NCBI RefSeq assembly: GCF_029590555.1
Contig: NZ_CP081002.1
Span: 802,501 to 866,500 of the forward strand
Direction: 5' to 3'
Length of the DNA stretch: 64,000 nt
From: Sphingobium sp. V4
GTDB lineage: Bacteria; Pseudomonadota; Alphaproteobacteria; Sphingomonadales; Sphingomonadaceae
A program made the translations under genes and the position numbers. Under the pieces are notes generated by a model that did not search any database, was not told where the DNA came from, and saw only the letters and a list, made by a program, of their open reading frames with translations. Shown here in pieces: positions 2,395 to 60,462 of the stretch (the stretch's first letter is position 1; every line of letters starts with the position of its first letter).

Positions 2395-3435
2395 CTATGC
2401 TGCCGTCAGCATAGGCGCATGCCCTCGTTCGAAGACGCCGCCGCGCGCCATGACTGCCCATGCGATCCGCGCCATCTTGTTGGCGATGGCGACCGAGGCG
2501 ACGCGTGCAGGCTTTCTGGCAAGCAGGGCAACAAAGCGCGGATCGACCGTGCTGGGTTTCTGCTTGGCGTATCGGACCAGCGCGGTTGCACCGACGATCA
2601 GAAGCTGCCGCAGATATCTGTCGCCCATCTTGGTGATGCGCCCCAAGCGTTCCTTGCCGCCGCTCGAACTCTGCCGCGGGGTCAGCCCCAGCCAAGCGGC
2701 GAACTGGCGTCCCGAAGCGAACTGCGTGGGATCGGTGACCGATGCCGCGAGCGCCGTCGCGCCGATCGGCCCGATACCAGGGATCGTCGCCAGGCGCCGG
2801 GCCCTGTCGTCGCTCCGCTGCAGAGCGGCGAGACGCAGGTCGAGCTTGCGCAACTGGGCGTGAAGCTGGAGCAGTTGCCCTGCCAGCACTGCGACGACGT
2901 TCGACGCTTCGGCCGGTAAATCGAGTTCAGTCTCCTCGCCGACGATCTCTCGCGCCATCTGCAGCGCCTTCACAATCCCGACGGGGATGGCGATCCCCAG
3001 CTCGGCAAGCACGCTGCGCATCATGTTGACCAGCTGCGTGCGCTGCTTGATCAACAGGCTGCGCACGCGATGCAGCGACAACGCCGCTTGCTGCTCGCGC
3101 GACTTGATGGGCACGAACCGCATCGTCTGACGTGTGACCGCTTCGCAGATCGCCTCGGCGTCGGCGGCATCATTCTTGCCGCGCTTCACATAGGGCTTCA
3201 CATAAGCCGCCGGCATCAGCCGAACCTCATGACCCAGCTTGGTCAGTTCGCGCGCCCAGTGATGCGACGTCCCGCAAGCTTCGGCGCCTACCAGGCACGG
3301 CGGCAACTTCTCGAAGAACGGCAGCATCTGCGATCGCCGCAGCGCCTTGCGTATTACGACCTCTCCGGTCGTGCTAATACCGTGAACCTGAAAAACGTTC
3401 TTGGCCAAATCCAGGCCGATCGTGCTAATCTCCAT
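2395..3435 (-). CDS. IS110 family transposase (IS1111 group)
   Basis: A DEDD recombinase that, with its guide RNA, would catalyse insertion and excision of the element. The N-terminal RuvC-like domain opens with GLDLAKNVFQVHG, carrying the first catalytic Asp, and continues with KNDAADAEAI. The C-terminal Tnp_IS110_2 domain has the helix-hairpin-helix-like TIPGIGPIGATALAA and the conserved QSSSGGKERLGRI segment with the catalytic Ser. The start at 3435 (MEISTIGLDL) is preferred over an upstream in-frame ATG at 3513, which would fall inside the terminal repeat. The predicted protein is 346 residues, a normal full length, and looks intact. Confidence 0.9.
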   Translation of the reverse strand: MEISTIGLDLAKNVFQVHGISTTGEVVIRKALRRSQMLPFFEKLPPCLVGAEACGTSHHWARELTKLGHEVRLMPAAYVKPYVKRGKNDAADAEAICEAVTRQTMRFVPIKSREQQAALSLHRVRSLLIKQRTQLVNMMRSVLAELGIAIPVGIVKALQMAREIVGEETELDLPAEASNVVAVLAGQLLQLHAQLRKLDLRLAALQRSDDRARRLATIPGIGPIGATALAASVTDPTQFASGRQFAAWLGLTPRQSSSGGKERLGRITKMGDRYLRQLLIVGATALVRYAKQKPSTVDPRFVALLARKPARVASVAIANKMARIAWAVMARGGVFERGHAPMLTAA

Positions 3436-3622
3436 GGCGGGTGGCTCCTGGCTCGGGTTTGCATGACAGCAACCCATCTTGGCACTTAGATGCCGTGAGC
3501 GGGAGCCATCCACCCTATCCGGTTTAGCGCCGGGTTTCGAGGATAGCTGCCGCTCAGGCGGCGTCGGCTGCCGACCAAGTTAAGCCGTTCGCCGGCCGCG
3601 TCCCATCGCATGGTGTAACAGC

Positions 3623-14871: not shown

Positions 14872-15174
14872 GTGCCTCGCTTCCGTTTAACACGCGCCGC
14901 AGTCGATGATCTGACAGCCATCTTTCTTGAGGGAATCGAGCAGTTCGGTCTACCTCAAGCCGACACCTATCATGAAGGGCTGAGCGCGATTTTCGCGTTT
15001 CTCGCAGACTATCCCCATGCCGCGCGTCTGCGCGAGGAGATTTCGCCGCCTGTTCGCGTGCATCCCTACAAGGCCCATCTGGTGATTTATGATGTGGGAA
15101 ATGAGGGCGAGGTCATCATTCTGCGCGTACGGCATGGTAGGGAAGATTGGATATCCTCGAATTATGATGGCTAG
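14872..15174 (+). CDS. parE: ParE family toxin
   Basis: A 100-residue RelE/ParE-fold toxin. The start is a GTG at 14872, two bases after the antitoxin stop. Recognisable elements are RFRLTRAAVDDLTAIFLEG, PVRVHPYKAHLVIYDV and the C-terminal IILRVRHGREDW, where the conserved Arg-His-Gly-Arg lies. ParE toxins poison DNA gyrase; whether this member does is inferred from family. The pair sits next to integrase genes, consistent with stabilisation of a mobile region. Confidence 0.88.
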   Translation: MPRFRLTRAAVDDLTAIFLEGIEQFGLPQADTYHEGLSAIFAFLADYPHAARLREEISPPVRVHPYKAHLVIYDVGNEGEVIILRVRHGREDWISSNYDG

Positions 15175-15366
15175 GCGCGGCGAGGTAGGCGCAGGCGGGG
15201 ATTCAGCAGAGTTTCCGCCCCACTTGGCACTTCTCCTGTCGACCAGCGCACGAACCCGCTCCGCGGGAGGGTCGCTTGGGGTGACGTAGCGTAGTATTTG
15301 TGAGGCTTTCGGCGGGGCGGCGTCGCCCGCCGACGGTGGAGTTCCTTCAACGGAGAGGAACTTACC

Positions 15367-16272
15367 ATGGATGCTATCACGACCGCTGCCCCGACCCATT
15401 CGCTGCGTGAGCGGATGCTGCAGGACATGAAGATGCGTGGCTTCGGGGCGCACACGCAGAATGACTATATCCGACATGTCCGGAACTTCGCCGCGTTTCT
15501 CGGCCGCCCCCCGGACACGGCCACGGTGGAAGACCTGCGGCGTTATCAGGTTGACCAGCACGAGCGCGCCGTTGGTCCAGCCACGATCAATGGCGCGGTA
15601 TCGGCACTGCGGTTCCTCTTCGGGATAACCCTCAGGCGGCCGGAGATGGCCCTAGCGCTGGTCGTCGTTCGCTTCACACCCAAACTGCGGGTGGTTTTGA
15701 GCGTCGAGGAGACAGCGCGGCTGCTCGAGGCTGCGCCAGGCATCAAGTACAAGGCGGCCCTCAGCGTGGCCTATGGCGCGGGCCTGCGGGTTTCGGAGGT
15801 TGCCCACCTCAAGGTCGATGACATCGACAGCACCCGGATGATGATCCGCGTCGAGCAGGGCAAGGGACGCAAGGACCGCAACGCCATGCTCTCACCGCAC
15901 CTGCTGGACTTGCTCCGTCAATGGTGGCGCGAAGGCAAGCGGCGCGGAGTGATGCTACCTCATGGCTGGCTGTTCCCCGGCCGCAGCGGCACAGATCCGG
16001 TCTCGGCTCGCCAGTTGCACCGCGTCGTGCAGGAAGCGGCCGAGCGCGCCGAGATCCACAAGCGGGTAAGCCCGCATACATTGCGCCACTCGTTTGCCAC
16101 TCACCTGCTCGAGCAAGGCGTCGATATCCGGGTCATCCAGGTGCTGCTGGGACACGTGAACATCAACACGACCGGCATCTATACCCAGGTCTCGAGCAAG
16201 ACGATGCGGGCGGTGGCCAGCCCGCTCGACCAGATCGTGGCCGTGATGGAAGGCAGGGCACCTCCCGGTTGA
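15367..16272 (+). CDS. Tyrosine recombinase/integrase associated with IS91
   Basis: A 301-residue XerC/D-like recombinase. The N-terminal SAM-like domain (about residues 12-95) has HTQNDYIRHVRNFAAFL. The catalytic domain contains AYGAGLRVSEVAHLKVDDI (Arg I), EQGKGRKDR (Lys), SPHTLRHSFATHLLE (His-Leu-Arg) and LLGHVNINTTGIYTQV (Tyr). It has a normal full length and all catalytic residues. ATG 15367 follows GAGAGGAACTTACC. It almost abuts the transposase gene, so the two are likely co-transcribed. Confidence 0.9.
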   Translation: MDAITTAAPTHSLRERMLQDMKMRGFGAHTQNDYIRHVRNFAAFLGRPPDTATVEDLRRYQVDQHERAVGPATINGAVSALRFLFGITLRRPEMALALVVVRFTPKLRVVLSVEETARLLEAAPGIKYKAALSVAYGAGLRVSEVAHLKVDDIDSTRMMIRVEQGKGRKDRNAMLSPHLLDLLRQWWREGKRRGVMLPHGWLFPGRSGTDPVSARQLHRVVQEAAERAEIHKRVSPHTLRHSFATHLLEQGVDIRVIQVLLGHVNINTTGIYTQVSSKTMRAVASPLDQIVAVMEGRAPPG

Positions 16273-16276
16273 GCCG

Positions 16277-16555
16277 GTGCGCACCTCACTCGAGGTCGCC
16301 GATATCTTCCGGAGCAGCGGGCCGGCCTATCGCGCGGCCCATGCCGGGCATCTCAGCCTCGGCCAGCTCAAGGTCATGACGGCCATCGAGAACTGCCGCA
16401 CCGCCGCGCTGGGCGGTCACGTCGAGGCCTGCGACGACTGCGGGCACTGGCGGGTCGCCTACAACTCGTGTCGCAACCGGCACTGCCCCAAGTGCCAGGG
16501 CGCCGCCGCGCGCACCTGGCTGGCCGCGCGCGAGGCCGACCTGTTGCCGGTTGGC
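16277..16555 (+). pseudogene. IS91 transposase, 5' fragment (zinc-binding domain)
   Basis: A GTG at 16277 opens the N-terminal part of an IS91 transposase. Its zinc-binding segment reads EACDDCGHWRVAYNSCRNRH followed by CPKC. The frame is intact to codons for LLPVG at 16555, where an IS110/IS1111 element is inserted. Joining base 16555 directly to 17951 restores a continuous frame, LLPVG|YFHVVFTLPN, which defines the insertion point exactly. Confidence 0.9.
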
Positions 16556-16589
16556 TTCTGTGGTTGCCGCCCGGTGTGCAAGAGGGTTT

Positions 16590-16800
16590 TGATCGAATGC
16601 GCGCGTGATCGAGTGCGGTCTTCTGTCAGGCCTTCCTATGCGGCATTTGCAGAAGCCGCGGGCCAGTATGGTGATCTGCGGATCAGGTCCAAATCTACTT
16701 CCCGAGCTTTATCGCTCATGCCAACCGGCTGGTTTTCCTGATCCAGATCTGTTCGATCATTGTGCCCATTCGGGTCGTCGCCTTCTCACACCCCCTTTAT
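16590..16800 (-). ncRNA. Bridge RNA (seekRNA) of IS110/IS1111 element 2, with guides matching its target
   Basis: An 8-bp stem, GGATCAGG at 16680-16687 with CCTGATCC at 16737-16744, closes a 49-base loop. Within it GCCAACCGGC (16720-16729) is the exact complement of the left target flank GCCGGTTGGC (16546-16555). CTACTTCC (16695-16702) equals the rebuilt right target, core C plus TACTTCC from 17951. Read as minus-strand RNA, the left guide comes first and would pair with the bottom strand, and the right guide with the top strand, as in described bridge RNAs. A second hairpin, 16615-16625 with 16650-16659, may be the donor loop. RNA ends are approximate. Confidence 0.75.
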
Positions 16801-16831
16801 CCGGCGTCAGGTAGTTTTTGCGGCATGTCGA

Positions 16832-17863
16832 TCATGCTGCGGCTGCCTGCGCCGAATCTCGGTAATCCTCGTTTTTCGTCAACATAGCCCAGATTGTTCG
16901 CGCCATTTTGTTGGCCAAGGCGATCGCAACAAGCATCCTTGGCTTTCGCGCTGCGATGCGTGCCAGCCACGAGCCTTCCGGAATTGATTTTCGGCCGAGC
17001 CAGTTCAGGCGCGACATTGCTCCGATAATCAGAAGTCTTCGGATATCGCTCTGCCCCGCCTTCGATACCCGACCGAGCCGTTCTTTCCCGCCAGAGGAGA
17101 ATTGGCGCGGGACGAGGCCAAGCCAAGCGGCAAAGTCGCGGCCGCAACGGAAACTCTCCATTGGTGGAGCAAAGGCTTCGACAGCCAAGGCGGTCAACGG
17201 ACCAACTCCCGGAATTGTCTGCAAGCGCCGCGCAGTATCCGCTTCAGCTGCGAGAGCCTTGATCTTTGCCGTCCGGGCATCGATGCGGACCGTCTTCTCG
17301 GCAATCTGCTTCATCAGATCGCCGCACTCCTCGCGCATCAGTTGGGGCAGGTCGCTGTTTGGTCCATCCAGGATACCTTTGATCCTGCCGAGCTGGTGAA
17401 TTCCCAGCGGAACGACATGGCCAAATTCGTAGAGGCACGCTCGAAGAGCGTTCACCAGCTCCGTGCGCTGGTGGACCAGCCGCTCTCGAGCGCGAAACAG
17501 GATGGTACGGCTTTGCTGCTCCGCAGACTTGGGTTCGACGAAACGCATCTCCGGCCGCTGTGCGGCGATCACGATGGCTTCGGCATCCGCCGCGTCGTTC
17601 TTCTGCCGCTTGACGAAGGGCTTCACGTAACGCGGAGCGATCAGCTTCACCTCATGGCCGCGCCTGCTCATCTCGCGCGCCCAGTAATGCGCGCTGCCAC
17701 AAGCTTCCATGACTACAATGGTGGGAGGCTGCTTGGCCATGAACTCAGCGAAACCCTGCCGCGACAGCTTCTTTCGAAACTTCGGCTGCCCGGTCATCGA
17801 TGCGCCGTGCAGCTGGAAAACAGATTTTGCCAAATCCACGCCGATCATCGTATCTTTTGTCAC
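16832..17863 (-). CDS. IS110 family transposase (IS1111 group), second copy type
   Basis: A 343-residue DEDD recombinase, clearly diverged from the first IS110 transposase. N-terminal IGVDLAKSVFQLHG carries the first Asp and KNDAADAEAIVIAA follows. The C-terminal domain has TIPGVGPLTALAV and the Ser-containing FSSGGKERLGRVSKAG. The start is a GTG at 17863, with an ATG at 17848 as alternative. The frame is intact, and the element sits inside an IS91 transposase with a matching guide RNA downstream, so it may be functional. Confidence 0.92.
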   Translation of the reverse strand: MTKDTMIGVDLAKSVFQLHGASMTGQPKFRKKLSRQGFAEFMAKQPPTIVVMEACGSAHYWAREMSRRGHEVKLIAPRYVKPFVKRQKNDAADAEAIVIAAQRPEMRFVEPKSAEQQSRTILFRARERLVHQRTELVNALRACLYEFGHVVPLGIHQLGRIKGILDGPNSDLPQLMREECGDLMKQIAEKTVRIDARTAKIKALAAEADTARRLQTIPGVGPLTALAVEAFAPPMESFRCGRDFAAWLGLVPRQFSSGGKERLGRVSKAGQSDIRRLLIIGAMSRLNWLGRKSIPEGSWLARIAARKPRMLVAIALANKMARTIWAMLTKNEDYRDSAQAAAA

Positions 17864-17950
17864 GGTTGCCGTCCTTTCCGCTCAGTGGCCTCAACACCAC
17901 TAACTTGGCACATTGCGATGCCGTCTGGGGAGGGCGGCAACCACCCCATC

Positions 17951-18865
17951 TACTTCCACGTCGTGTTCACCCTGCCTAACGAGGTCGCAGACATCGCCTT
18001 CCAGAACAAGGCGGTGGTCTATGACCTGCTGTTCCGCGCAGCCGCGGACACGATGCTGATCATCGCCGCCGATCCCAGGCACCTTGGCGCGCGGATCGGC
18101 ATCACCGCCGTGCTGCACACCTGGGGATCGGCACCGACCCACCATCCGCATGTGCACATGATCGTGCCTGGCGGTGGCATCGCGCTCGACGGCACGCGCT
18201 GGATCTCGTCGCGCCCCGCATTCCTGCTGCCGGTGCGTGTGCTTGGCGCCTTGTTCCGCCGTCTGTTCCTCACTCGCCTGTTGGCATTGTTCGATGCCGG
18301 CAAGCTGGTCTTCTTCAGCACCTTGGCTGGCCTCGCGACACGCAAGGCCTTCCTGCGGCATCTCTCGCCGATCCGGAAGAAGCGCTGGGTGGTCTATGCC
18401 AAGCCGCCCTTCGCCGGGCCGCAGGCGGTGCTGGCCTATCTCTCGCGCTACACGCACCGGGTTGCCATCTCGAACCGGCGGCTCCTCGGCTTCGACGAGA
18501 CCGGCGTGACGTTCCGCTACAAGGACTATCGCCGCCCTGCTGCTGAACGCCAGCAGGTCATGACGCTGGAGACCGACGAGTTCGTCCGCCGCTTCCTGAT
18601 CCACGTTCTGCCGCGCGGCTTCCACCGCATCCGGCATTACGGCCTGCTCGCCAGTTCGACCCACAAGGACACCATGGCGCTGGCCCGCAGCCTGCCGGGC
18701 GTTGCTGTACCGGTCGAGGAGCCCGAACCCGACGAACCTCCCGACCATCGCCCACCATGCCCATGTTGCGGCGGGCACATGACCATCATCGAGGCCTTCG
18801 CCCGCTGGTGCCAGCCCCGCGCGCCACCATCATCGGCATCGCCAATCCGGGGGAATGCGCCATGA
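17951..18865 (+). pseudogene. IS91 transposase, 3' fragment (HUH/Y2 catalytic domain)
   Basis: This is the continuation of the fragment ending at 16555. It holds the HUH motif (HHPHVHMIVPGGG), the tyrosine motif in YLSRYTHRVAISNRRLL, the conserved RKKRWVVYAKPPFAGP stretch and a C-terminal CPCCGG zinc motif. It ends at the TGA 18863-18865. Apart from the IS110 insertion no damage is visible, so precise excision would restore the gene. A partial second copy of this region, of a different variant, lies at 50088-50374. Confidence 0.9.
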
Positions 18866-19290
18866 TGCGGCATGGCTCAGACTGCACGACGGTCACGCCC
18901 ATGGCGGCCTGGCCGATGACCCAGTGTATGCCCATTCCGCAATCGAGCCCAGCGCAGGGCACACCGACCAGCAAAACCGCCACCGTCGGCACTCTGACGC
19001 CGCACAAAGTCACGTTGATCCGGCCAGAACCGACACTTCCGGATCGGCATCGCTTACCCGTCCAAACCACCCCTAAGCCGCTTTACCCATAGACCAGCGC
19101 ATGGGGCCCGCGGGTTCCTGCACTGGAGGCTTTCGTACGCAAGCGCCCGAAACCCTTCACAACTCAAGCCGTTCCGTCACCACGGCAAAAGTGTCCGCTC
19201 GCGCCGAAACCGGTCATACACTTAGCATCGCTTGTCCCGAGCAGCGGCTTGCCAGAATATAAAAACCCATCTCTCAACGCTTGCCGCCCC
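18866..19290. other. Noncoding: probable IS91 3' end, no gene seen
   Basis: No supportable gene is visible in these 425 bases. The segment following the transposase probably includes the replication-origin end of the IS91 element, but its boundary was not resolved. The GFA gene stop lies at the right edge. Confidence 0.5.
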
Positions 19291-19728
19291 TTACTTCGCA
19301 AGCGCGACCTGGAACTGCGCAGGAGTTGGCGTTTTCTCGAAAGCGGGGGCCTTATCGGGCAAAATCACCCAAGGCTGGGCGCTGCTGGTCCAGATATGAA
19401 CGGCGGGCACCACCTCGTCGCTGCGGTCGAGCGTTCCCGCGCGCAGGATAATCATGCCCGGAACTGCGCTGTTGCGGTTGGCGATGCGTGTCATGCACCG
19501 TGCGCATCCGAGATGCTCGGACGGCATCTGCTCCACATCGTCCAAACGGAAGCGATGCACGCCCGGGTCCAGCGAAAGGATTGCTTCGGGCAGCATCGCG
19601 TGGAGCGCGAAGGCGCTGCCGCTCCATGTCTGGCAGTCCCGGCAATGACAGGCATAGACCAGCGGCAGGGCGTCTAGAGCGATATCGTATCGGATCGTGC
19701 CGCAGCGGCACCCTCCCGTGATCGGCAT
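19291..19728 (-). CDS. GFA family protein (CENP-V/GFA domain)
   Basis: A 145-residue zinc-binding protein. Zinc ligands are seen in GGCRCGTIRYD near residue 5 and CHCRDCQTWSGSAF near residue 27, with a further Cys pair in HLGCARC. The family was named for glutathione-dependent formaldehyde-activating enzyme, but most members have no proven reaction. The ATG at 19728 is preferred because AAGGA lies seven bases before it; an ATG at 19734 is the alternative. It is 70 bases from the aldo/keto reductase stop on the same strand and may be co-transcribed. Confidence 0.82.
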   Translation of the reverse strand: MPITGGCRCGTIRYDIALDALPLVYACHCRDCQTWSGSAFALHAMLPEAILSLDPGVHRFRLDDVEQMPSEHLGCARCMTRIANRNSAVPGMIILRAGTLDRSDEVVPAVHIWTSSAQPWVILPDKAPAFEKTPTPAQFQVALAK

Positions 19729-48857: not shown

Positions 48858-50243
48858 ATGAAATCCCGACTGACGGCCTTCATCCTCATCGGCATGGTCC
48901 TGGGGGTGCTAACCGGCTTTGTGGCCAATCTCTGGGTTGGGGGCGACGAAACGCTGGCGAAGGATGTAGCGGGCTATTTCCACCTTCTGGCCGACATCTT
49001 CCTGCACCTGATCAAGATGATCATCGCGCCGCTGGTCTTTTCCACGCTGGTCGCGGGCATCGCCCATATGGGCGACAGCGCGGCGCTGGGGCGGATCGGC
49101 GGGCGGGCACTGGCCTGGTTCATCATCGCCAGCCTGATCTCGCTGACGCTGGGCCTGATCTTCGTCAATTTCTTCGAGCCCGGCGCGGGCCTCAACCTGG
49201 TCCGGTCGGGCGCGGATTCGGGGGTGAGCACCGAGGCGCTCAACTTCCGCGACTTCATCCTGCATGTCTTCCCGACATCGATGGTGGGCGCGATGGCGGA
49301 AAATTCGATCCTCCAGATCGTCGTCTTCTCGCTGTTCGTCGGCGTCGCGCTGACCGCCATAGGCGACAAGGGCAAGCCGATCGTGACGGTGATCGAGGCG
49401 ATGGTCGAACTGATGCTGCAGGTGACGGGCTATGTGATGCGCGTCGCGCCCTTCGCGGTGTTCGGCGCGCTCGCTTCGTCCGTGACGGTGCAGGGTCTGG
49501 GCGTGCTCAAGACCTATGGCGCGCTGGTCGGCGAATTCTATATCGCCCTCCTCTGCCTGTGGGTGCTGCTGTTCTGCGCAGGAGCGATCTTCCTTGGCAA
49601 GCGGATGTTCAAGCTGCTCCGCTATGTCCGCGAACCGATCCTGATCGCCTTCTCGACCGCCTCGTCCGAAGCCGCCTATCCCAAGATGCTGGAGCAGCTC
49701 GACCGTTTCGGCATTCCGCGTCGCATCTACAGCTTCGTGCTGCCGCTGGGCTACAGCTTCAACCTGGATGGGTCGATGATGTACGCAACCTTCGCGACCA
49801 TCTTCATCGCCCAGGCCTATGGCATCGACCTGCCGATCGCGACGCAGATCACCATCCTGCTGGTGCTGATGGTGACCAGCAAGGGCATCGCCGCCGTACC
49901 GCGCGCGTCGCTGGTCGTCGTGGCCGCGACGCTGGGCCAGTTCGAACTCCCGGTCGAGGGCGTGGCCTTCATCCTGGCGGTCGACCATTTCATGGACATG
50001 GGCCGCACCGCCACCAACGTGCTGGGCAACGCGATCGCAACGTCGGTCATCACCAAATGGGAAGGTATGCTGGAGGTCGGCGCTCATACACCATCCGCAT
50101 GTGCACATGATCGTGCCAGGAAGTGGCATCTCGCTGGACGGCACGCGGTGGATATCGTCGCGCCACGCCTTCCTGCTGGCGGTGCGCGTACTGGGGGAAT
50201 TATTCCGCCGCCTGTTCCTCACCCGCCTGCTGGCGTCGTTTGA
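48858..50243 (+). CDS. DAACS family dicarboxylate/amino acid:cation symporter, C-terminus replaced
   Basis: A sodium- or proton-coupled transporter of the GltP/DctA family. Residues 1-409 show the family pattern: IKMIIAPLVFSTLVAGIAHMG, STASSEAAYPKMLEQLDR (substrate serines), GYSFNLDGSMMYATFATIF and DHFMDMGRTATNVLGNAIA. The normal short cytosolic tail after KWEGMLE is missing. From about 50085 the frame runs into an IS91 fragment and adds roughly 53 unrelated residues. All membrane segments seem present, so function may persist. It likely imports the amino acid released by the preceding amidohydrolase. Confidence 0.85.
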   Translation: MKSRLTAFILIGMVLGVLTGFVANLWVGGDETLAKDVAGYFHLLADIFLHLIKMIIAPLVFSTLVAGIAHMGDSAALGRIGGRALAWFIIASLISLTLGLIFVNFFEPGAGLNLVRSGADSGVSTEALNFRDFILHVFPTSMVGAMAENSILQIVVFSLFVGVALTAIGDKGKPIVTVIEAMVELMLQVTGYVMRVAPFAVFGALASSVTVQGLGVLKTYGALVGEFYIALLCLWVLLFCAGAIFLGKRMFKLLRYVREPILIAFSTASSEAAYPKMLEQLDRFGIPRRIYSFVLPLGYSFNLDGSMMYATFATIFIAQAYGIDLPIATQITILLVLMVTSKGIAAVPRASLVVVAATLGQFELPVEGVAFILAVDHFMDMGRTATNVLGNAIATSVITKWEGMLEVGAHTPSACAHDRARKWHLAGRHAVDIVAPRLPAGGARTGGIIPPPVPHPPAGVV

Positions 50244-50374
50244 TGCCGGCAGGCTGGGCTTCTTGGGCGCTCAGGCACATCTCGCTGCCCGCAAGGCGTT
50301 CCTCCTGCGCCATCTCTCGCCTATCCGGAAGAAGCGCTGGGTGGTCTATGCCAAGCCGCCCTTCGCTGGGCCGC
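50088..50374 (+). pseudogene. IS91 family transposase fragment
   Basis: A plus-strand stretch encoding HHPHVHMIVPGSGISLDGTR, LFRRLFLTRLLASFDAG and SPIRKKRWVVYAKPPFAGP. It corresponds to the HUH region of the transposase at 17951-18865 but differs at several positions, so it comes from another copy. It begins at the HUH motif, where it cuts the symporter gene, and ends where the ISL3 relic begins. Confidence 0.85.
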
Positions 50375-51212
50375 ATTCGGCATCATGGATTGGAAGTCGC
50401 CGATTGCCTTGCGCGCGGCTACCAGTTCAGGGACGTTCTCCTCGATTACCGCCACCAGGATCGCTTCGGATTTGGCAAGTCCATCCCACGCCGAGGTCAT
50501 CAGGCGCACAAGGACGCGCGCCGAGGGCGTGCGTGCGAGGCCACTTTGATTGGCCTTTTCGGCGAGACGGCGCCGTTGGGCCCATTGTGAGACGACACCG
50601 CTCTGACCGACAAAACCTTCCGCGCGCATCTCGCGCCAAAGCGCCAGGGCAGTGCGGGTGCCGTTATCCCATCGGTCGTTCAGCCATGGCAGCCAACTGT
50701 CCAGGAAGCTGGGTCGGGTGCGGAATACGTCCATTCGCTGACCGCGCAAAACATCGCGAACGAGCTTTCGGCTATGGCCGGTCTGCCGAACAATCTGCCG
50801 GATGGACGCTCCATTTTTCGTTAGTTCCCGGACGGCGTCATTGGTTGCCTGCCGACGGAGGTAGCCTTCATACTGGAGCTTTTCGGCATAGTGGCTGAGT
50901 CCGCCGAGCATACCGAGCCAGAACGCCGTCATCGAATTGCTCGCAAAAAATGCGTCGCCCGCAAATGACAGTGTCGCACCAAAAGCGGCGCGTCAGAATC
51001 TTCAGAAGGACGCGAAGACCACCAAGGGGAAGGTCCGACGGTCGGCGCACATATCGGCTTTGAACCCGCCGACATGTGCGCCCACAGTCGCGGCAAACCG
51101 CAAAAGTACAGCGTGAGCGCAGCAGGATTTGGACATCTTCCCCGACGCTCTGCACTGAGACAACTACAAAGCCTTCGGGTGCAAGGCTCGCGCGCTGAAA
51201 TCGACCGTGCAT
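50375..51212 (-). pseudogene. ISL3 family transposase relic with internal deletion
   Basis: On the minus strand the N-terminal zinc-binding domain is present (51212-50950: FAVCRDCGRTCRRVQSRYVR and RRFWCDTVICGRRIFCE). The C-terminal part follows directly in another frame (AEKLQYEGYLRRQATNDAVR, GHSRKLVRDVLRGQRMDVFR, SWLPWLNDRWDNGTRTALAL). The whole central DDE catalytic core is deleted between about 50885 and 50935. It is cut at its 3' end by the IS91 fragment. It cannot be functional. Confidence 0.75.
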
Positions 51213-51508: not shown

Positions 51509-51946
51509 ATGAGTTTGAGCATAATGGAAAATTCTCAAAGTCGACGACAAGCGCCCACTCGGCTGCGGGATTGGCTGTGGCGGCCGTGGTATGCGAAGCT
51601 ATGGTGGAGCGCGGTGCCGACCTATTGGCTGGGCATGCTCGCAACCCTCAGGATTGATGCTCTAGCTGAAGTTTATCATTCGGCTGCCGGTGGATATCTG
51701 AACGTCTTGTTCTTCCCGCCGATGGTGGCGCTTGTTCTCTCGTTTGGTTTCTTGCGCAACAGACTGGCATCGTTGCCAGCCCAGGAGGACGGTGAATTTG
51801 ATGAGGACTCATTTTGGGAGCGAAGGAAATATGGGCCGTCAAGGTTGCCGAAAGAGGTTGATCCGCTGGATTCCGCGTCCGGGGCTCTATGGATCGGCAG
51901 CTCTTTGGACCCCCTTAACCCCGGCTATATCAATCGCGCTTCTTGA
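51509..51946 (+). CDS. Small membrane protein of unknown function
   Basis: A 145-residue protein with two predicted membrane helices at about residues 34-50 and 64-80 (WWSAVPTYWLGMLATLRI and YLNVLFFPPMVALVLSFGFL). A polar tail ends SLDPLNPGYINRAS. The final residues and the composition do not match a family I know. It converges on traG and overlaps its stop by 17 bases. It could be an entry-exclusion or accessory protein of the conjugation system, but that is only a guess from position. Confidence 0.55.
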   Translation: MSLSIMENSQSRRQAPTRLRDWLWRPWYAKLWWSAVPTYWLGMLATLRIDALAEVYHSAAGGYLNVLFFPPMVALVLSFGFLRNRLASLPAQEDGEFDEDSFWERRKYGPSRLPKEVDPLDSASGALWIGSSLDPLNPGYINRAS

Positions 51947-54900
51947 ATGACCCGTCGCCATCTGTTGGACCGTTAGCTAAGTCGGTCGAGAAGCGGCCGC
52001 TGTAGAGGAGCGAAGACTGCTCAAATGAAGTGACGGGGGCATTTATATCGGTCGTTCCACGCGCGCTGTCGGCATCTCCAAGATAGCGGTTTCGCAGGCC
52101 GTTGGCTCCAAGGATCTCTAAGGTAAGGCGATTTGTGAATGCCTCTGCCGGTTGGCCGGCCTTCGAAGCCGCGTACTCGGCGTTGGCGATAGCTTGCCGG
52201 ACATCGTAATTTACAATGCTGAGCTGACTGCTGGCGGCTTCGTTCGTGGTCCCGCTTTCCTGACTTGAAACGGCAAGAGATCCTCCAACTCGACCGCTGC
52301 CACTCCCGGAGCGATCTTTGCTAGATCCCCCGCCTGTGCTGATGGTTGTACCGGCGATTTCGCCTTGGGCCGTAATATTGAACACGTTCTGATCTTGAGC
52401 TGCCCTTCCGATCGAGCGCTCCCAACCCGTCTGCGCCATGATCGCCTGAACATCCCGCTGGAGGGTGTCAACGACCTGCGGTTTCAGGCGCCAATCGCCT
52501 TTACGATCCATCTCGAACCCGCCCTTGAGCCAGTTCGCCATCGCGGCGCGACCTTCGGCGCCACCGCCCATGAAATGCTCGATCGTGTCGGGCCCGGCCT
52601 GCTTGCCCGCTTCGAACCGCGTGCTGGTGTCGTTGCGCGCGGACTTCTCGAACCCAGCGCTGCTGGAGACGAGGAGGTCATTATGGGCGAGGCTGAAGCG
52701 GGCATGGCCGCCATTGGCAACCGCGCCAAGCTGACTTTCGTTGAGAAGGCCGGCCTGCCACATCTGAGCGGCGGTCGCCGGGGTAAGATTCATCCTGAAG
52801 TCGCCATTCTGGTCCATGGCGATCTGACGCTTGCTCATCTCGATGCCGTTGGCGCGAAGCAGGCCCTGCATGCGTGACAGACGCTCGCGCTCGACAATGC
52901 TGGTCATCCGGGCGTTGCGCGCCCGGTCGGCGATGCCGTCGGTGCCACCTTCCGCCATGTCGAGCTGATTGCCGCTGGCATCAGCCAGCGTCCGAATGAA
53001 ACTGTCGAGACGAGCCGCCTCGCGCGTCGACATGCCGGCGACCTCGGCGCCTTGTGCAAAGCCGAAATTCTCCGACTGGCGCCGCTGTTCGCCGATCCGG
53101 GCAGTGCTGCGGGTGCCGCCATGCCCGACCTCCTTCTGCGCGTCGAGTTTTCCAGAACGCTCGGCAAAGTCATAGCCGGCAGCTTCCCGGGTCCGCCCAT
53201 AAACGCTGGTACCTTCGCGTGCCGCTTCAGCCGTTGCGCCATCGGCCGTGCCAAGATCGGTCGCCGCCCGATAGGTTTCGAGAGCCTTGGTCACCTGGGC
53301 TTCATTGCGGCCCGTTGCGCGGGAGAGTTGCGTGATAGCGGAGGAGCGCGCTTCGCCGGAGAGGGCATTGATGAAGGCGATGCGGCGGCTCATCTCATCA
53401 ATGGGGAGGCCAAGCATAGCGGCAGCTTCGCGCTGACCTTCATTGCCGCCAGTGCGATGTGCCTGCTCGGTCGCGACGTTGCCCCGTTCCACCTGGGCGA
53501 CCCGGTCACCCGCATAATCGCGGCGACCTTCCATCGCCCCGACTTGCACCTGCGCTGCCGTCAGGTCATTGCGGAGCATCGTCTCCTGAGTGAAGCTATT
53601 GGCGATCAGTTTCGCGAACGTCGGATCGGCGCTGGCCTCGGCCACGACGCCGCTCGCTTTAAGTTCGGCATCTTGGTTCCCATAACCGGCCCGTTCAAAA
53701 TGCCGGGTGGCCTGCTGCATCATCATGCCATAGGCGCGGGTGTCACCAAACGCTCGCCACTGAACCAACCCCTGGGTGAAGGCGCCGAACGCCTTCTCGC
53801 CGGCCTCGCCCGCGCCAAAATAGCGGGTGCCGAGGGTCCGCAGCGCATCCTTGTCGGCAAAATTGTGGATGGCGCCGGTAGCCGCCGCCGCGCGAACCGC
53901 GCTGATCGTTGCCGGGTCACCCAAGTCCCGGCCATGAAGCGCGGGCGCAAGGCCGCCCATCTCGCGGGCGGCATCGAGCGCGCCAAGCCCCATCGCCGCG
54001 CCACCGGGCGCGCCAGTGCCATGGGATGCCGTGACCGCGCCCGCCGCGCCGAAGCCGCGATTGGCGCCGAAGCTCGACCGTTCCCCAAAATCTCCGAAGG
54101 TCGACGCTGCGCCACGGCGCGCGCCCGTGCCCATGGCCGAGGCCTGCGCCTCCAGCGCGGAGGCGAGGCCCTCGGAGGTGGACACGCCAGCGGCGGCAGC
54201 CGAGCCCTGCGCCTGGACGCCCAGCGAGCCGCCGGTGAAGGAGGAGAAGACATTGCCCGAAAAGCGGAAGACGGTGAACACGAACGCGCCGGCAAGGCCC
54301 GCCGCCGCCGTGCGGAAGCTCCCGAAGATGGCGAGCGCCTTCATCGCCGAGGAGGGGGCAAGCATCCAGGTCGTGGCCGCCACATGATTGGAGCGCATCT
54401 CGGCAAGGACCGCCATCGCTCGACCCAGCGTCAGCTGATAGATGCCGGCGTCGATGACGCCCCAGAGCGCCACGAACACGAAGAGGCCCAGCGCAAAGCT
54501 CGCGACCCGCAGGTTGATGGGGGTGAGAATGAACAGCAGCGCGATCGGCATCATGAACAGCATGATTCCGAACACCGTCGCCCGGATCGTGGGCATCCAT
54601 TCATTGGCGGTCGACATGGTGGCGAGACCACCCGCCACCACGGCGCGATTGGCCATCACCCGGGCGGCGGTCGCCGGGCTGTCCTCGAACAGAACGTCGC
54701 CCACGCTGTTGCCAAGCAGGATATTGGTGAAGAAGGTCTGGGCGGTGAGCGGCGTCTCCAGCATCATGTCGCCCATCTCGGCGAGGTTGCTGCGGCACCG
54801 TGCGAGCTGGTCGGCCTTGGCGATGTCATAGCCTGTGCGCTGACAGACCTGGGCGGAATAGTCCTCGAAGATCGTCGGGTCTGAGAGCCGATCGGCGATA

Positions 54901-55658
54901 TGGGACCAGGCTTCGCTGCAACTGACCGTCGTGCCGCCCTTGTCCGAAGCCGTGAACACCGTGCTGAAGGTCGACGGCCCTGCCATCGCGGCGAACGATG
55001 CGGGGAGATCTGTGCTGGTGCGGAAGAGCTGGTCGTCATCCACGCCATAGGCCGGCGAGACGCGGGCGACCGGATAGCATTGGCGGACATAATCCTTGAT
55101 CGTCGCGTCGAGAAAGGCATCGGTCATCGGCCCGCGCGGATTGATGGCATTGAGGAACAGATCGAAGGCGTGGCCGCCGGCACCGAACTCGAGCTTGGCA
55201 TGTGGGTCGAGCGTATTGTCGTCGATCGTCTCGGCAAGCGCGCGCTCCATCATGTTGGTGACGCCTGCCACGAGGACGATGAGATTGGGAACGTCCCCGA
55301 CTGGCTGGTAGGCATTGCGTACCCGGTCGTAAACATGGACGGTGCCGGTCGTCGCGACGAGGCCGACGAACAGGCCGATGCCGACCAGCATCTGAAGGCC
55401 GAACGCGACCAGGCCCATGCCGGTACCACGGATCATGGCGAGCACCGCGCCCAGCGCCATCCCGACGACAGCGACGATCAGCACCAGCGTCTCGTAGCGC
55501 GGATCGGCGAAGATCATCGACACGAGCCGGAACGCGTCCACGGTTTCGGCAAAGCCGTCATAGGTGTGGAAGCTTGTCTCCAGAGCGAGGGCGGGGGAGG
55601 CGACGAACAGGCTGGCGAAACCGCCAAGTGGCGCGGGCAGTCGGGGTAGGCGGCGCAT
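51930..55658 (-). CDS. traG: Conjugal transfer protein TraG (F-type mating-pair stabilisation)
   Basis: A 1242-residue protein. After a signal-like segment it has several N-terminal membrane helices (YETLVLIVAVVGMALGAVLA and GLVAFGLQMLVGIGLFVGLV) and the TraG_N region with cysteines (VRQCYPVARV, CSEAWSHIADRLSD, CQRTGYDIAKADQLARC). Three more helices lie at about 360-460. A long Ala/Gly/Gln-rich soluble C-terminal region (about 500-1242) corresponds to the part of F TraG that contacts the recipient. In F-type systems TraG joins pilus assembly and mating aggregate stabilisation. It is the last gene of the minus-strand tra operon. Confidence 0.87.
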   Translation of the reverse strand: MRRLPRLPAPLGGFASLFVASPALALETSFHTYDGFAETVDAFRLVSMIFADPRYETLVLIVAVVGMALGAVLAMIRGTGMGLVAFGLQMLVGIGLFVGLVATTGTVHVYDRVRNAYQPVGDVPNLIVLVAGVTNMMERALAETIDDNTLDPHAKLEFGAGGHAFDLFLNAINPRGPMTDAFLDATIKDYVRQCYPVARVSPAYGVDDDQLFRTSTDLPASFAAMAGPSTFSTVFTASDKGGTTVSCSEAWSHIADRLSDPTIFEDYSAQVCQRTGYDIAKADQLARCRSNLAEMGDMMLETPLTAQTFFTNILLGNSVGDVLFEDSPATAARVMANRAVVAGGLATMSTANEWMPTIRATVFGIMLFMMPIALLFILTPINLRVASFALGLFVFVALWGVIDAGIYQLTLGRAMAVLAEMRSNHVAATTWMLAPSSAMKALAIFGSFRTAAAGLAGAFVFTVFRFSGNVFSSFTGGSLGVQAQGSAAAAGVSTSEGLASALEAQASAMGTGARRGAASTFGDFGERSSFGANRGFGAAGAVTASHGTGAPGGAAMGLGALDAAREMGGLAPALHGRDLGDPATISAVRAAAATGAIHNFADKDALRTLGTRYFGAGEAGEKAFGAFTQGLVQWRAFGDTRAYGMMMQQATRHFERAGYGNQDAELKASGVVAEASADPTFAKLIANSFTQETMLRNDLTAAQVQVGAMEGRRDYAGDRVAQVERGNVATEQAHRTGGNEGQREAAAMLGLPIDEMSRRIAFINALSGEARSSAITQLSRATGRNEAQVTKALETYRAATDLGTADGATAEAAREGTSVYGRTREAAGYDFAERSGKLDAQKEVGHGGTRSTARIGEQRRQSENFGFAQGAEVAGMSTREAARLDSFIRTLADASGNQLDMAEGGTDGIADRARNARMTSIVERERLSRMQGLLRANGIEMSKRQIAMDQNGDFRMNLTPATAAQMWQAGLLNESQLGAVANGGHARFSLAHNDLLVSSSAGFEKSARNDTSTRFEAGKQAGPDTIEHFMGGGAEGRAAMANWLKGGFEMDRKGDWRLKPQVVDTLQRDVQAIMAQTGWERSIGRAAQDQNVFNITAQGEIAGTTISTGGGSSKDRSGSGSGRVGGSLAVSSQESGTTNEAASSQLSIVNYDVRQAIANAEYAASKAGQPAEAFTNRLTLEILGANGLRNRYLGDADSARGTTDINAPVTSFEQSSLLYSGRFSTDLANGPTDGDGSFKKRD

Positions 55659-55672
55659 GGTGTGGTGACCCT

Positions 55673-57094
55673 TCAGCGGTTGCGGCTGGCGGCGGTGCCG
55701 GCGGCGTCACGCGCATCCCGATCACGCTGACGGATGAGGCCGGCATAGCCCGTCGAGAGGTTCGCCTGGGAGAGCTCCGCCATATAGGATTGCCGCATCT
55801 GCGCGCGCTGGCGCAGCACCTCCTCCCGCAGGTCGCGGAGCTGCTCGATACCCTTGGTGAGGATCCGGGTCTGGCAGATATTGGCGCTGGTCCCATCGGC
55901 GGCGCCCGCCGCGCTGGTCCCGCGCTCGGCATTGGAGATCGCAAAATCGATGCTGCGGGTGAGGTCGTTCAGCATTTGATAGGCAAGAGTCAGGGCGACC
56001 AGCTCGTCAGTATCGCCGATAACCGAGTCCACCACATCCTGGCGCACGCCCCATTCAAGCATTCGGTAGACCGGCAGGGTCCGTACATTGGCGACGAACT
56101 GCCGTTCCTCGGCCGTGAGCGAAGCGCGCGTCCTGATCTTCTCCGCGATCGAGGTCATGCGCTCACGGGTGAGCGCCAGCGCGCCCTTGTTCCCATCCTG
56201 CGTGCAATCGGCGGCGGTGGCCGGCATGTTGAGCGCACGCCGCATCACCCGCCCGCTCAGGAAGTCGTCCGAGGACTCGGTATCCTGACCAGCGCAGGCG
56301 GGGATAGCCGAGAAGAGCGGCACCTTGTCGGTCGCGTCCCAGCGCATATAGACGTCGCCGACCCGCGCGCGCATGACGGCGGCCCAATCGGCGGCGCCGA
56401 CGCGGGACGCCGCATGGGCGAGCAGCGATCCGGTGCGGAAGATGTCGGTCACTTCGATCGGGCAGTTGGCCAGTGCGTCCTTCAGATCCTCGGTCGGACT
56501 ATTCCCGTTCGCCTGGATCTTCTCGCGGCTCTGCTGATAGCTTTTGGCGTAACCTTCTTTCACCGACTTGTAGCCGGTCATCTCCTCGATGATGCCCGAC
56601 ATATTGTCGTCACCTTTGGCGATCTGGACCATGCGGTTGGCGAGGCGGCAGTCGTTGACCTGGATCGAATTCAAGAAATTGGTGGCCGCCTCCATCTTCG
56701 AAATGATGTTCCCCATCTTCTCGTCCAATGTTTCCAGCAGATATTGGAACGCGACGGCGGGCGCGGCCTGGAGGATGCTCTCGAGCTTCTGGACGAGATA
56801 GTCGGGGTCGAGGAAGGACATGCCGCCCAGAAACATGTCGATGCCGCCGCAGCCTGCCTTTACCTTGGGCATGGTGAGGCTCATCAGATAGTCGCTATGG
56901 ACATCGATGCGGCCGGACATGCCGCCCGCCGTCACATAGCCGCGCGTCTGGTCCTCGAAGCTGCCAGGGCTGGTATAGGTCACATTGTCGAACCAATGCT
57001 CGGCCCAGCTTTGGGCATGGGCGGGCATAGCCGTCCCGCAGGTTGCAAGCAGAGCCAGAACGGTTAGCGTCGCGCTAGATTTGAGATGGGGCAT
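55673..57094 (-). CDS. traH: Conjugal transfer protein TraH
   Basis: A 473-residue periplasmic protein with a signal peptide (residues 1-27, ending MPAHAQS). It matches F-type TraH: FDNVTYTSPGSFEDQTRGYV, GCGGIDMFLGGMSFLDPDYL then VQKLESILQAAPAVAFQ, and NDCRLANRMVQ. TraH is needed for pilus extension together with TraF, TraW, TraU and TrbB. It starts 14 bases after an AAGGAAG site and ends 14 bases before traG. Upstream the operon is interrupted by the ATPase gene. Confidence 0.9.
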   Translation of the reverse strand: MPHLKSSATLTVLALLATCGTAMPAHAQSWAEHWFDNVTYTSPGSFEDQTRGYVTAGGMSGRIDVHSDYLMSLTMPKVKAGCGGIDMFLGGMSFLDPDYLVQKLESILQAAPAVAFQYLLETLDEKMGNIISKMEAATNFLNSIQVNDCRLANRMVQIAKGDDNMSGIIEEMTGYKSVKEGYAKSYQQSREKIQANGNSPTEDLKDALANCPIEVTDIFRTGSLLAHAASRVGAADWAAVMRARVGDVYMRWDATDKVPLFSAIPACAGQDTESSDDFLSGRVMRRALNMPATAADCTQDGNKGALALTRERMTSIAEKIRTRASLTAEERQFVANVRTLPVYRMLEWGVRQDVVDSVIGDTDELVALTLAYQMLNDLTRSIDFAISNAERGTSAAGAADGTSANICQTRILTKGIEQLRDLREEVLRQRAQMRQSYMAELSQANLSTGYAGLIRQRDRDARDAAGTAASRNR

Positions 57095-57170
57095 GGCGGC
57101 TTCCTTGTCGTGAGGAGAAAAAGGAAGGGCGCGCCCGCCATATGCGAGCCCTTCAGCAGCAACTGAAAAA

Positions 57171-57190
57171 TATTGAGGTTTTTAACCTTG
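57171..57190. promoter_or_regulatory. Small inverted repeat upstream of the inserted ATPase gene
   Basis: AGGTT-TTT-AACCT (57176-57188) lies 35 bases before the ATPase start and 80 bases from the traH start. It could be an operator or a weak promoter element. It is the only symmetric element seen in the divergent gap. Confidence 0.3.
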
Positions 57191-57222
57191 CAAATCTGGA
57201 ATACTGATCCGAATATGCAAGG

Positions 57223-58389
57223 ATGATTGAACGTCGGATCAGAAGCGAGCTCATTGCTCGGCTGGATGAAAGCCCTGCGGTCGCCTTGCTCGGGCCACGC
57301 CAGGTCGGCAAGACGACGCTTGCGCAGGAACTGACCTATGACCGGCCATCCATCTATCTCGATCTCGAATCGGACCGGGATCGCGCGAAGCTTGCCGATC
57401 CCGAACTCTATCTCGAAAGCCATGAAGACAAGCTCGTCATACTCGACGAGGTTCATCGACTTCCGGACCTCTTCCAGCTTCTGCGCGGCCTCATCGATCG
57501 GGGGCGTCGCAAGGGATTGCGGACGGGTCGGTTCCTGCTGCTGGGTTCGGCTTCCATGGAATTGCTGGCTCAATCGGGCGAAAGTCTTGCCGGGCGCATC
57601 GCCTATCTGGAAATGCGTCCGCTCGACGCCCTGGAGGTGGGCGACGGGGATGTTGATCGGCTTTGGATTCGCGGCGGCTTTCCCGACAGCTATCTCGCCA
57701 CCAGCGATGCCACGAGCCGGCGTTGGAGGCAGGACTTCATCCGAACCTATCTCGAACGTGACATTCCCATGCTGGGTCCGCGTATTCCTTTCGAAACGCT
57801 GAGGCGTTTCTGGACGATGCTCGCCCACCATCAATCGGGCCTGTTGAATGCCTCGGACCTGGGGCGCAGTCTTGGCGTCGATTCCAAGACCATCGCCTCC
57901 TATCTCGACCTTCTGGTCGACCTGCTTCTCGTCCGTAGGCTTGAGCCCTGGCACAGCAATAGCGGCAAGCGTCTCGTCAAATCGCCTCGCGTCTATGTGC
58001 GCGATAGCGGCATCGTCCACACATTGCTGGGTCTTGCCACCCGCGAGGATGTGCTGGGACATCCCGTCGCCGGCGCAAGCTGGGAGGGGTTTGCAATCGA
58101 GACGCTGATATCGGCGGCCCCCGAAGGAACGCAGGCGCATTTCTACAGAACATCGGCCGGCGCCGAGATCGATCTTCTCCTCAGCATTCCGGGGCATGGC
58201 CTTTGGGCCTTCGAGATCAAGCGCAGCCTTTCGCCCAAGGTCGAGCGGGGCTTCCATCATGCTTGCGCAGATCTGGATCCGGCGCGGCGGATCGTTATCT
58301 ACCCTGGAGAAGAGACCTACAAGCTCGCCGAGAATATCGAGGTTTGCGCGATAGCCGAGGCAGGCCGATGGCTCCTGTCTCTGCATTGA
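57223..58389 (+). CDS. AAA family ATPase with DUF4143 (AAA_14)
   Basis: A 388-residue ATPase. Walker A is LLGPRQVGKTTLAQEL and Walker B VILDEVHRLPDLFQLLRG. The sensor region LLLGSASMELL and FIRTYLERDIPMLGPR follow. The C-terminal DUF4143 nuclease-like domain has SWEGFAIETLI and AEIDLLLSIPGHGLWAFEIK, an acidic/Lys pattern resembling the PD-(D/E)xK fold. Members are common, often single genes in accessory DNA, and their function is unsettled. It lies in reverse orientation within the tra operon, between traH and the trbB-like gene. Confidence 0.87.
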   Translation: MIERRIRSELIARLDESPAVALLGPRQVGKTTLAQELTYDRPSIYLDLESDRDRAKLADPELYLESHEDKLVILDEVHRLPDLFQLLRGLIDRGRRKGLRTGRFLLLGSASMELLAQSGESLAGRIAYLEMRPLDALEVGDGDVDRLWIRGGFPDSYLATSDATSRRWRQDFIRTYLERDIPMLGPRIPFETLRRFWTMLAHHQSGLLNASDLGRSLGVDSKTIASYLDLLVDLLLVRRLEPWHSNSGKRLVKSPRVYVRDSGIVHTLLGLATREDVLGHPVAGASWEGFAIETLISAAPEGTQAHFYRTSAGAEIDLLLSIPGHGLWAFEIKRSLSPKVERGFHHACADLDPARRIVIYPGEETYKLAENIEVCAIAEAGRWLLSLH

Positions 58390-58421
58390 CGGAATGTCGA
58401 TGATTGAGACGCCCGGCATGA

Positions 58422-59018
58422 TCAGTTCCGATCCTCCCCTTTTGCGTTGGAGATGCCCGCGACAATTCCCGTGAACTTCGCCATCGCGCGAACGCCGACC
58501 GCGGCCCGCACGCCGGTCTGCATCTTCAGCCCAAGATAGATGTTGCGGGCGAGATTGGCTGGATGATCCGTCCCGATCGCGATCGGCAGGATGCGCGCCT
58601 CGTCGGAGACCGGGCGGAGCCAGGCGACGGGATGGCCGATCCACGGAAGGCCGAGCCGTCCTGAACGGAGCATCGCCTCGTCCCTGCCGATCGGACGGAC
58701 TGTCAGCCTGTAGCGCGTCTTGAGAGCAAGAAGCTTGGTCCAGAGATCGCCGCAGGGCAGGCAGCCGGGCGCCGTGCTCATCTCGATGACGAATGCGGAC
58801 CCTTCGCCCTTCAAAGCCGCCTCGAAATCCGGCGGATAATCGACAGTTCGGGGAACGCGGGCGAGCCAGCTCTGCATTTCGCGGGCGCTGGACACCGGAT
58901 GGATCGCGGCGCGGGCTGCCGCGACACGGTCAGGTGCCAGTCGTTCCGCCTGCGCATGGACCGGGAGCGGCAGCACGCCCAGCAGCGCGATCGATGGTCG
59001 AAGAGGAAGGGCCCTCAT
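58422..59018 (-). CDS. Periplasmic thioredoxin-fold protein, TrbB-like
   Basis: A 198-residue exported protein with a signal peptide (residues 1-22, ending PVHAQ). A thioredoxin-like active site CLPC occurs in STAPGCLPCGDLWTK, followed by YRLTVRPIGRDEAMLRSGRL. In F-type transfer regions a second thioredoxin-fold protein, TrbB, works as disulfide isomerase for other Tra proteins; this gene sits in the matching position next to traF. Assignment to TrbB is by context and CxxC motif. The start overlaps the traF stop by four bases. Confidence 0.65.
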   Translation of the reverse strand: MRALPLRPSIALLGVLPLPVHAQAERLAPDRVAAARAAIHPVSSAREMQSWLARVPRTVDYPPDFEAALKGEGSAFVIEMSTAPGCLPCGDLWTKLLALKTRYRLTVRPIGRDEAMLRSGRLGLPWIGHPVAWLRPVSDEARILPIAIGTDHPANLARNIYLGLKMQTGVRAAVGVRAMAKFTGIVAGISNAKGEDRN

Positions 59019-59866: not shown

Positions 59867-60462
59867 AGAAGCCGCTCCATCCGGGTGAGGCGCTCGATCC
59901 GGACGGGGCCGAAATAACGACTGTCAAAGCCTCCGGCATGATCGGAGCCGACATAGATAAAGCCCGCCGGGATCGGCCGGTCGCCCCAGTGGAACTGCGG
60001 CAGCGGTTGGCCGTCGTGACTGAACGGGCGGGTCGCGCCGAGAAAGGTCCGACCGCAATAATACCAGCTGCGGGTTCCAGGCTTGCCATCGAGCGCTGGC
60101 CGCTCAATCTCTCGCAGCCGCTCACCCGGGAGGCACGCAGCTCTCTTGGTGACGCTGACCGGACGGGGACCGGCAACGGGTTGGGACAGCATGAACTGGA
60201 CGAGGTCGCCTTTCCGGATCGGCCCCGGAGCGGGCCGCACCGCCCAGGCATCAATTGATGGGCTCATCACGAGGGTCACCTTCGGCAGGAGATAACCCGC
60301 AAGACCAGCGAGCGGCAGGGTGATGGTAAGGGCTAGCGTCAGACGGCGCGGATTGGCCGGCTGATCCTCGACCGCGCCGCCGAGTGCAGCCACTGTCTCG
60401 CGAGGCAGTGCCTTGAGGCGCGGCCAGGCCGCGCTAGCGGTGATACAGGCGAGACGCAGCAT
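59863..60462 (-). CDS. S26 family signal peptidase of the conjugation system
   Basis: A 199-residue membrane-bound peptidase, homologous to the TraF peptidase of RP4 and LepB. A hydrophobic anchor at about 45-65 precedes the catalytic Ser in LVMSPSIDAWAV. The Lys base lies in VSVTKRAACLPGERL, and the C-terminal box HWGDRPIPAGFIYVGSDHAG completes the fold. It probably processes propilin or other secreted Tra proteins. ATG 60462 has GGAGGAGG upstream; the first 29 bases overlap trbC. Confidence 0.87.
   Translation of the reverse strand: MLRLACITASAAWPRLKALPRETVAALGGAVEDQPANPRRLTLALTITLPLAGLAGYLLPKVTLVMSPSIDAWAVRPAPGPIRKGDLVQFMLSQPVAGPRPVSVTKRAACLPGERLREIERPALDGKPGTRSWYYCGRTFLGATRPFSHDGQPLPQFHWGDRPIPAGFIYVGSDHAGGFDSRYFGPVRIERLTRMERLL

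Follow-up and report, generated by a model that had tools for sequence, protein, structure and literature searches.

A predicted bridge RNA in an IS1111-type element carries guides that match the element's insertion site in an IS91-family transposase gene

How did a transposable element come to lie inside the transposase gene of another transposon in Sphingobium sp. V4, and does it carry the address of that site itself? We analysed a window of 64,000 nucleotides of contig NZ_CP081002.1 (positions 802,501 to 866,500), in which direct reading places an IS1111-type element of the IS110 family at 16555-17951, cores included, within an IS91-family transposase gene. A first, sequence-only reading had proposed that a noncoding RNA of this element holds the complement of its target. 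From the evidence set out below, we consider it almost certain that the element was inserted by RNA-guided recombination.

The element consists of a DEDD transposase, a pair of subterminal inverted repeats (sTIRs) and a long 3' noncoding region (Table 1). Analysis of the transposase revealed a DEDD RuvC-like N-terminal domain (PF01548) and a Transposase_20 C-terminal domain (PF02371), both above cut-off; the NCBIfam model NF033542, "IS110 family RNA-guided transposase", also matched above cut-off (E 8.8e-93), and parts of the protein matched the sequences of the solved ISCro4 and IS621 transposases. A comparison of the transposase with the PADLOC defence-system library gave no match. Transposases of the IS1111 type are 330-350 aa long and contain the motif GL-P----S(t)G (PMC11187229), while the sTIRs measure 7-17 bp (PMC11208160). 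Here, a protein of 343 aa contains GLVPRQFSSG, and a perfect repeat of 11 bp lies inside both element ends. The noncoding region downstream of the transposase has 275 bases (16557-16831), versus 87 upstream (17864-17950); IS1111 members usually have such a region downstream, and their seekRNA forms are about 80-155 nt long (PMC11187229). In the IS110 group (IS621-like elements), the RNA lies upstream of the transposase and the sTIR is absent or short, whereas in the window the RNA is downstream and the sTIR has 11 bp. The junctions read, in window orientation, GCCGGTTGG-CT-TCTGTGG on the left and CCCCAT-CT-ACTTCCACG on the right. Elsewhere in the window (2395-3513, minus strand), a second frame resembling IS110-family transposases encodes 372 aa and has KNDAADAEA in common with the transposase studied here; its DNA is 69% similar to the element over 258 bases.

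Table 1. Positions, within the window, of the element, its predicted RNA and its target.
Feature	Position	Strand	Basis
Interrupted IS91-family transposase gene, 5' part	16277-16556	+	PF14319, NF033538
Left half of target, GGTTGG, same sequence as in 5' target guide	16549-16554	+	reading, family test, empty site
Core CT, left junction (AG in element orientation, 3' end)	16555-16556	.	direct reading
Subterminal inverted repeat, 3' (RNA-proximal) end, GGGCGGCAACC	16562-16572	-	repeat comparison
Predicted bridge RNA / seekRNA, closing stem to closing stem, 154 nt	16606-16759	-	consensus fold of 65 sequences, pair counts, single-sequence fold
Closing stem, 3' arm UCGAUCA	16606-16612	-	helix 1
Donor guide ACAGAAG, same as RNA-proximal element end + core	16620-16626	-	59/65 rows equal over 7 nt
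Putative donor guide CCAU, complementary to element 5' end (17946-17949)	16668-16671	-	nearly invariant
Target-arm stem, 3' arm CCUGAUCC	16680-16687	-	helix 3
3' target guide GAAGU + core AG	16695-16701	-	reading, family test
Inner hairpin GAGC-loop-GCUC between the two target guides	16704-16717	-	helix 5: 99.6% of cells paired
5' target guide GGUUGG + core C	16720-16726	-	reading, family test; match extends 3 bases to 16729 without family support
Target-arm stem, 5' arm GGAUCAGG	16737-16744	-	helix 3: 7/8 pairs changed on both sides
Closing stem, 5' arm UGAUCGA	16753-16759	-	helix 1: 92.7% of cells paired, 1/7 pairs changed on both sides
IS110-family (IS1111 type) DEDD transposase, 343 aa, frame open	16832-17863	-	PF01548, PF02371, NF033542
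Subterminal inverted repeat, 5' end, GGTTGCCGCCC	17932-17942	-	repeat comparison
Core CT, right junction (element 5' end)	17950-17951	.	direct reading
Interrupted IS91-family transposase gene, 3' part	17951-18865	+	PF04986, NF033538
Right half of target, ACTTC, complement of 3' target guide	17952-17956	+	reading, family test, empty site

We searched the genome that carries the window (4.54 Mb, 4 contigs) for the target. Three further copies of the IS91 gene (L087-L089), 99% identical over the 915 bases searched, run unbroken across the insertion site, where ...TTGCCGGTTGGC is directly followed by TACTTCCACG... (GGTTGG-CT-ACTTC; contiguity was read at the site only). The 13-mer GGTTGGCTACTTC (GGTTGG-CT-ACTTC), defined by the guide positions that have family support, occurs exactly three times in this genome, each time in one of these copies and nowhere else. 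When up to 2 mismatches were allowed, 77 sites were found versus 182 for a reversed control pattern; near-matches of the 13-mer are therefore not enriched in the genome. IS91 relatives on two other plasmids, which lack the element, differ from the 13-mer by one base (L091) and by two bases (L092). The sequence-only reading had placed an IS1111-group element inside an IS91 transposase, with CT at both junctions and an original site that can be rebuilt exactly. The domains, the sTIRs, the IS91 parts on both sides and the junction letters agree with it, and the intact target, which it had suggested looking for in uninterrupted IS91 copies, is present in the three copies described above. Other family members were sought at IS91 sites by tblastn (E up to 1e-5) with the two IS91 pieces separately against 80 related loci and the window, some flanks being short, and the window alone was found.

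Several other features belong to the surroundings of the target. A tyrosine recombinase gene (15367-16272) lies directly upstream of the interrupted IS91 transposase gene. On the related plasmid of L091, a recombinase is likewise found beside the IS91 transposase gene; the pair may therefore form one mobile unit. Another partial match to the IS91 transposase (L090, 306 bases, 83% identity) is located at 50070-50375 of the window (852570-852875). At 51930-63808, several long minus-strand reading frames presumably resemble F-type conjugation proteins, which suggests a conjugative element there.

The element is present once in its own genome, all remaining matches being partial and 69-84% identical. 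A single copy in spite of three open matching targets would fit a relic, with a genuine RNA and genuine guides, that can no longer move. We regard such a loss of mobility as rather unlikely, though it deserves to be kept in mind, given that the copy retains, all intact, its 343-aa frame, the sTIR and core of each end, the two target guides and the RNA fold.

To compare the element with its kin, we used the best 80 of 172 confirmed loci from a scan of genome contigs. In 90 of 397 genomes from the same family, a match of some kind was present, full-length relatives reaching at most 80% identity. Together with the window, 68 of the 80 loci align end to end (69 elements), the other 12 having been dropped for a missing or unaligned end. 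The flank tests used 68 of these 69, as L057 lacks its 3' flank; removal of duplicate guide pairs left 59 distinct pairs, and removal of identical RNA stretches left 65 rows. The core at the 5' junction is AG in 69/69 elements, and that at the 3' junction is AG in 65/69, GG in two and AT in one, with one cut off. The 5'-end subterminal repeat is GGTTGCCG in 63/69 elements and GGATGCCG in 6/69 (counted by eye). The flanks vary between elements.

The downstream noncoding region is predicted to fold into a bridge RNA. An Rfam scan of 15000-19500 matched no family (E up to 1). The single-sequence fold of 16557-16831 has a z of -3.5, and RNAalifold on the 65 sequences gave a closing stem, a target arm with an internal loop and an inner hairpin, and a second arm that ends in the hairpin GCGGC:GCCGC; of the 36 pairs, 12 are retained through changes on both sides. 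A structure of 35 pairs, written by hand from the window sequence, was tested on the 65-row alignment. It pairs in 96.6% of cells, with 12/35 pairs changed on both sides. None of 500 shuffles, which ignore relatedness, was as high on any of five measures, and pairing falls to 21-47% when the structure is slid by 1-3 columns. The best supported helix is the target-arm stem. In the second arm, the ACAGAAG donor guide tracks the natural end variants ACAAA, ACACA, AAAGA and ACAAG; the putative CCAU guide and the element's 5' end are nearly invariant and therefore without covariation support.

Within the target arm, 16720-16729 reads GCCAACCGGC; its reverse complement, GCCGGTTGGC, is the sequence that ends at the left junction, and 16695-16702 reads CTACTTCC, the same as the right junction sequence. 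All 11 of the guide positions match the element's own flanks; the second core base is mismatched in the 5' guide, which has CA for CT. The window contains 6,659 CT sites, counted on the two strands; the best of them matches 8 guide positions, and none matches 11/11. The sequence-only reading had described a stem closing a 49-base loop, in which 10 and 8 bases, counting a core C, match the two sides of the target as in published IS110 bridge RNAs. Its stem is perfectly complementary and conserved with compensatory changes, and the conservation across homologues that it had proposed as a check is seen in the covarying stems of the 65 sequences. The stem does enclose the loop, but the loop is not open: it holds CCA:UGG and GAGC:GCUC helices and an internal loop. 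The core is the dinucleotide CT and not C alone. The guides do match both strands; their order in transposase orientation, however, with the top-strand match 5' of the bottom-strand match, is that of IS1111 elements and the reverse of that in the IS110 member tested (PMC11187229). As to the lengths, all letters match exactly, but the relatives support 6 + 5 non-core positions: bases outside these match at or near chance across the family, and part of the 10 + 8 match is therefore fortuitous.

This calibration to 6 + 5 bases around CT comes from the alignment of noncoding regions, in which two variable stretches, the guides, are set between conserved segments in the order AACCAG-(5' guide)-GAGC-loop-GCTC-(3' guide)-AGA-TTTGG. 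In the relatives, the 3' flank recurs in the 5' guide as its reverse complement, and the 5' flank recurs in the 3' guide in direct orientation. Over the 59 pairs, 5' guides match their own flank at a mean of 5.49/7 positions versus 2.46 for other flanks (better of two registers taken both ways), and 3' guides at 4.63/7 versus 1.84. The own-flank sums lie 20.3 and 17.7 SD above the mean of 10,000 permutations and exceed every one of them, kinship being handled by duplicate removal only. The own flank is best or tied-best for only 40/59 5' guides and 37/59 3' guides, partly because related guides recur. The signal lies in six bases of the 5' guide (76-90% own versus 25-34% others, the own values being slightly inflated, as they also served to choose the register) and in five bases of the 3' guide (78-93% versus 25-32%). 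At each of the eleven positions, all four letters are found as matches. At least 8/11 positions are matched in 61/68 elements and fewer in seven, of which three (L034, L040 and L041) have 6 or fewer. Pairwise identity is 0.25-0.36 in the guide columns (50-55 and 76-82) and 0.56 in column 56, the core base in one register, whereas the 145 columns that belong neither to the guides nor to the inner hairpin loop average 0.84; two unpaired non-guide stretches, namely this loop and columns 142-147, are as variable as the guides. With guide columns of such low identity, shared descent can hardly explain the agreement between guides and flanks.

The comparison of guide loops with flanks, which had also been proposed at the outset, was extended to a hold-out set of 12 plasmid elements, hand-picked among 40 listed of 729 records. 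None of their accessions occurs in the relatives' set, and the guides of one (L131) are equal or nearly equal to those of L007. With the 6 + 5 positions and two registers, all 12 match their own flanks at 9-11/11, whereas against the flanks of the other elements the mean is 3.7. Of the 132 other-flank values, four reach 9-11, as expected because two pairs share guides (L134/L135 and L140/L141).

A single element at a single site cannot tell cause from consequence, and the loop might have taken up flanking DNA after insertion, the match being a trace of the event and not its guide. This account is very improbable. Each target half has its own guide, the two guides match opposite strands, and a conserved hairpin lies between them. 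One guide pair is common to three contigs of one Sphingobium genome (L022, L023 and L076) and to L019 and L020; the five sites differ, have the guide motif in common and match 11, 10, 9, 8 and 9 of the 11 positions, respectively (counted by eye). The same loop at unrelated sites, named beforehand as the finding that would speak against a guide, was sought in this set with a negative result. One 5' guide and the corresponding flank motif, with similar 3' guides, are common to seven loci from as many taxa (L008, L013, L018, L030, L032, L035 and L042), pointing to a recurrent target. Moreover, published reprogramming experiments show that it is the RNA that determines the site (PMC11187229). Still weaker is chance complementarity between noncoding region and flanks, for which one could cite the 7-8-base matches to flanking sequence elsewhere in the noncoding region and the chance-level agreement of the outer matched bases in the family, but which is already refuted by the permutation tests on the relatives, and further opposed by the 12/12 result of the hold-out set and by the lack of any CT site in the window above 8/11, so that we give it practically no weight. 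Modular exchange of single guides was also considered: the 3' guide alone is common to 7 pairs, while 500 column shuffles gave 2.1 such pairs on average and never more than 7. One of the observed pairs resembles a register artefact, and the count was not taken as evidence.

The preferred reading, insertion by RNA-guided recombination, can be put as a sequence of steps. The 3' noncoding region would be transcribed into a bridge RNA (seekRNA) carried by the DEDD transposase in an RNA-protein complex. In its target loop, 6 bases and the core in the 5' guide would pair with one strand of one target half, while 5 bases and the core in the 3' guide would pair with the opposite strand of the second half; the second arm would recognise the two ends of the element through donor guides. 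A circular intermediate would then recombine, by strand exchange, through its CT core with the CT core of the IS91 gene, giving an insertion without gain or loss except for the shared CT.

The relatives differ in how the 5' guide is set against the core. Among the 59 distinct pairs, 41 are in a first register, with the full CT core complement in 34/41, and 15, including the window's element, are in a second, with CT in 1/15 and CA or CG in 10/15; three are ambiguous. A looser register rule gave 42 and 17, the calls being made from the alignment with simple scoring. With the CT complement in only one second-register guide, pairing of the second core base appears to have been abandoned there. 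We tentatively suggest, from these sequence comparisons, that within this mainly alphaproteobacterial subfamily the scaffold may stay fixed while the sequences of the two target guides change to saturation, the 5' guide occupying either of two registers that differ by one base. If true, the crossover position relative to the RNA scaffold would be adjustable in evolution. This one-base shift between members is possibly the sole mildly new detail.

The mechanism was already published in 2024, and the element is a clear new natural example of it. The element and its IS91 target were not found in the literature listings, and the titles and abstract openings of papers on IS1111 and IS91 together concern no such targeting. 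A guide, its used target and three unused identical targets in open IS91 copies within one genome make a textbook natural case, and the subfamily, whose scaffolds hardly vary while its guides are numerous and unrelated, is suited to studying how natural bridge RNAs are retargeted.

Among the systems described, the closest are the IS1111 seekRNA elements ISEc11, ISPa11, ISKpn4 and ISPst6 (Siddiquee et al. 2024, PMC11187229), which likewise have a DEDD transposase of 330-350 aa, sTIRs and a long downstream noncoding region with two short guides in the same strand order; the window's element differs from them in its target, an IS91 transposase gene, in its guides, and in that its RNA is predicted. 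With IS621 and the bridge RNAs of the IS110 group (Durrant et al. 2024, PMC11208160), it has in common the target and donor loops, a CT core included in the pairings, and guide-target covariation; both the covariation and the CT core are described there. In IS621, however, the RNA lies upstream of the transposase, whereas here it lies downstream, with the guides in the opposite order when read against the transposase. The window element's donor guides also flank a further hairpin arm, unlike those of IS621; in many IS1111 members, the donor-binding bases are located in a multiloop (PMC11208160). Finally, ISEc21 of the IS110 group, which inserts into IS3-family transposase genes, is a published precedent for a transposon that targets the transposase gene of another (PMC11187229). 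Its target, like that of the window's element, is a conserved stretch in the transposase gene of a different IS family, but ISEc21 belongs to a different group, has a different victim family and carries its RNA upstream.
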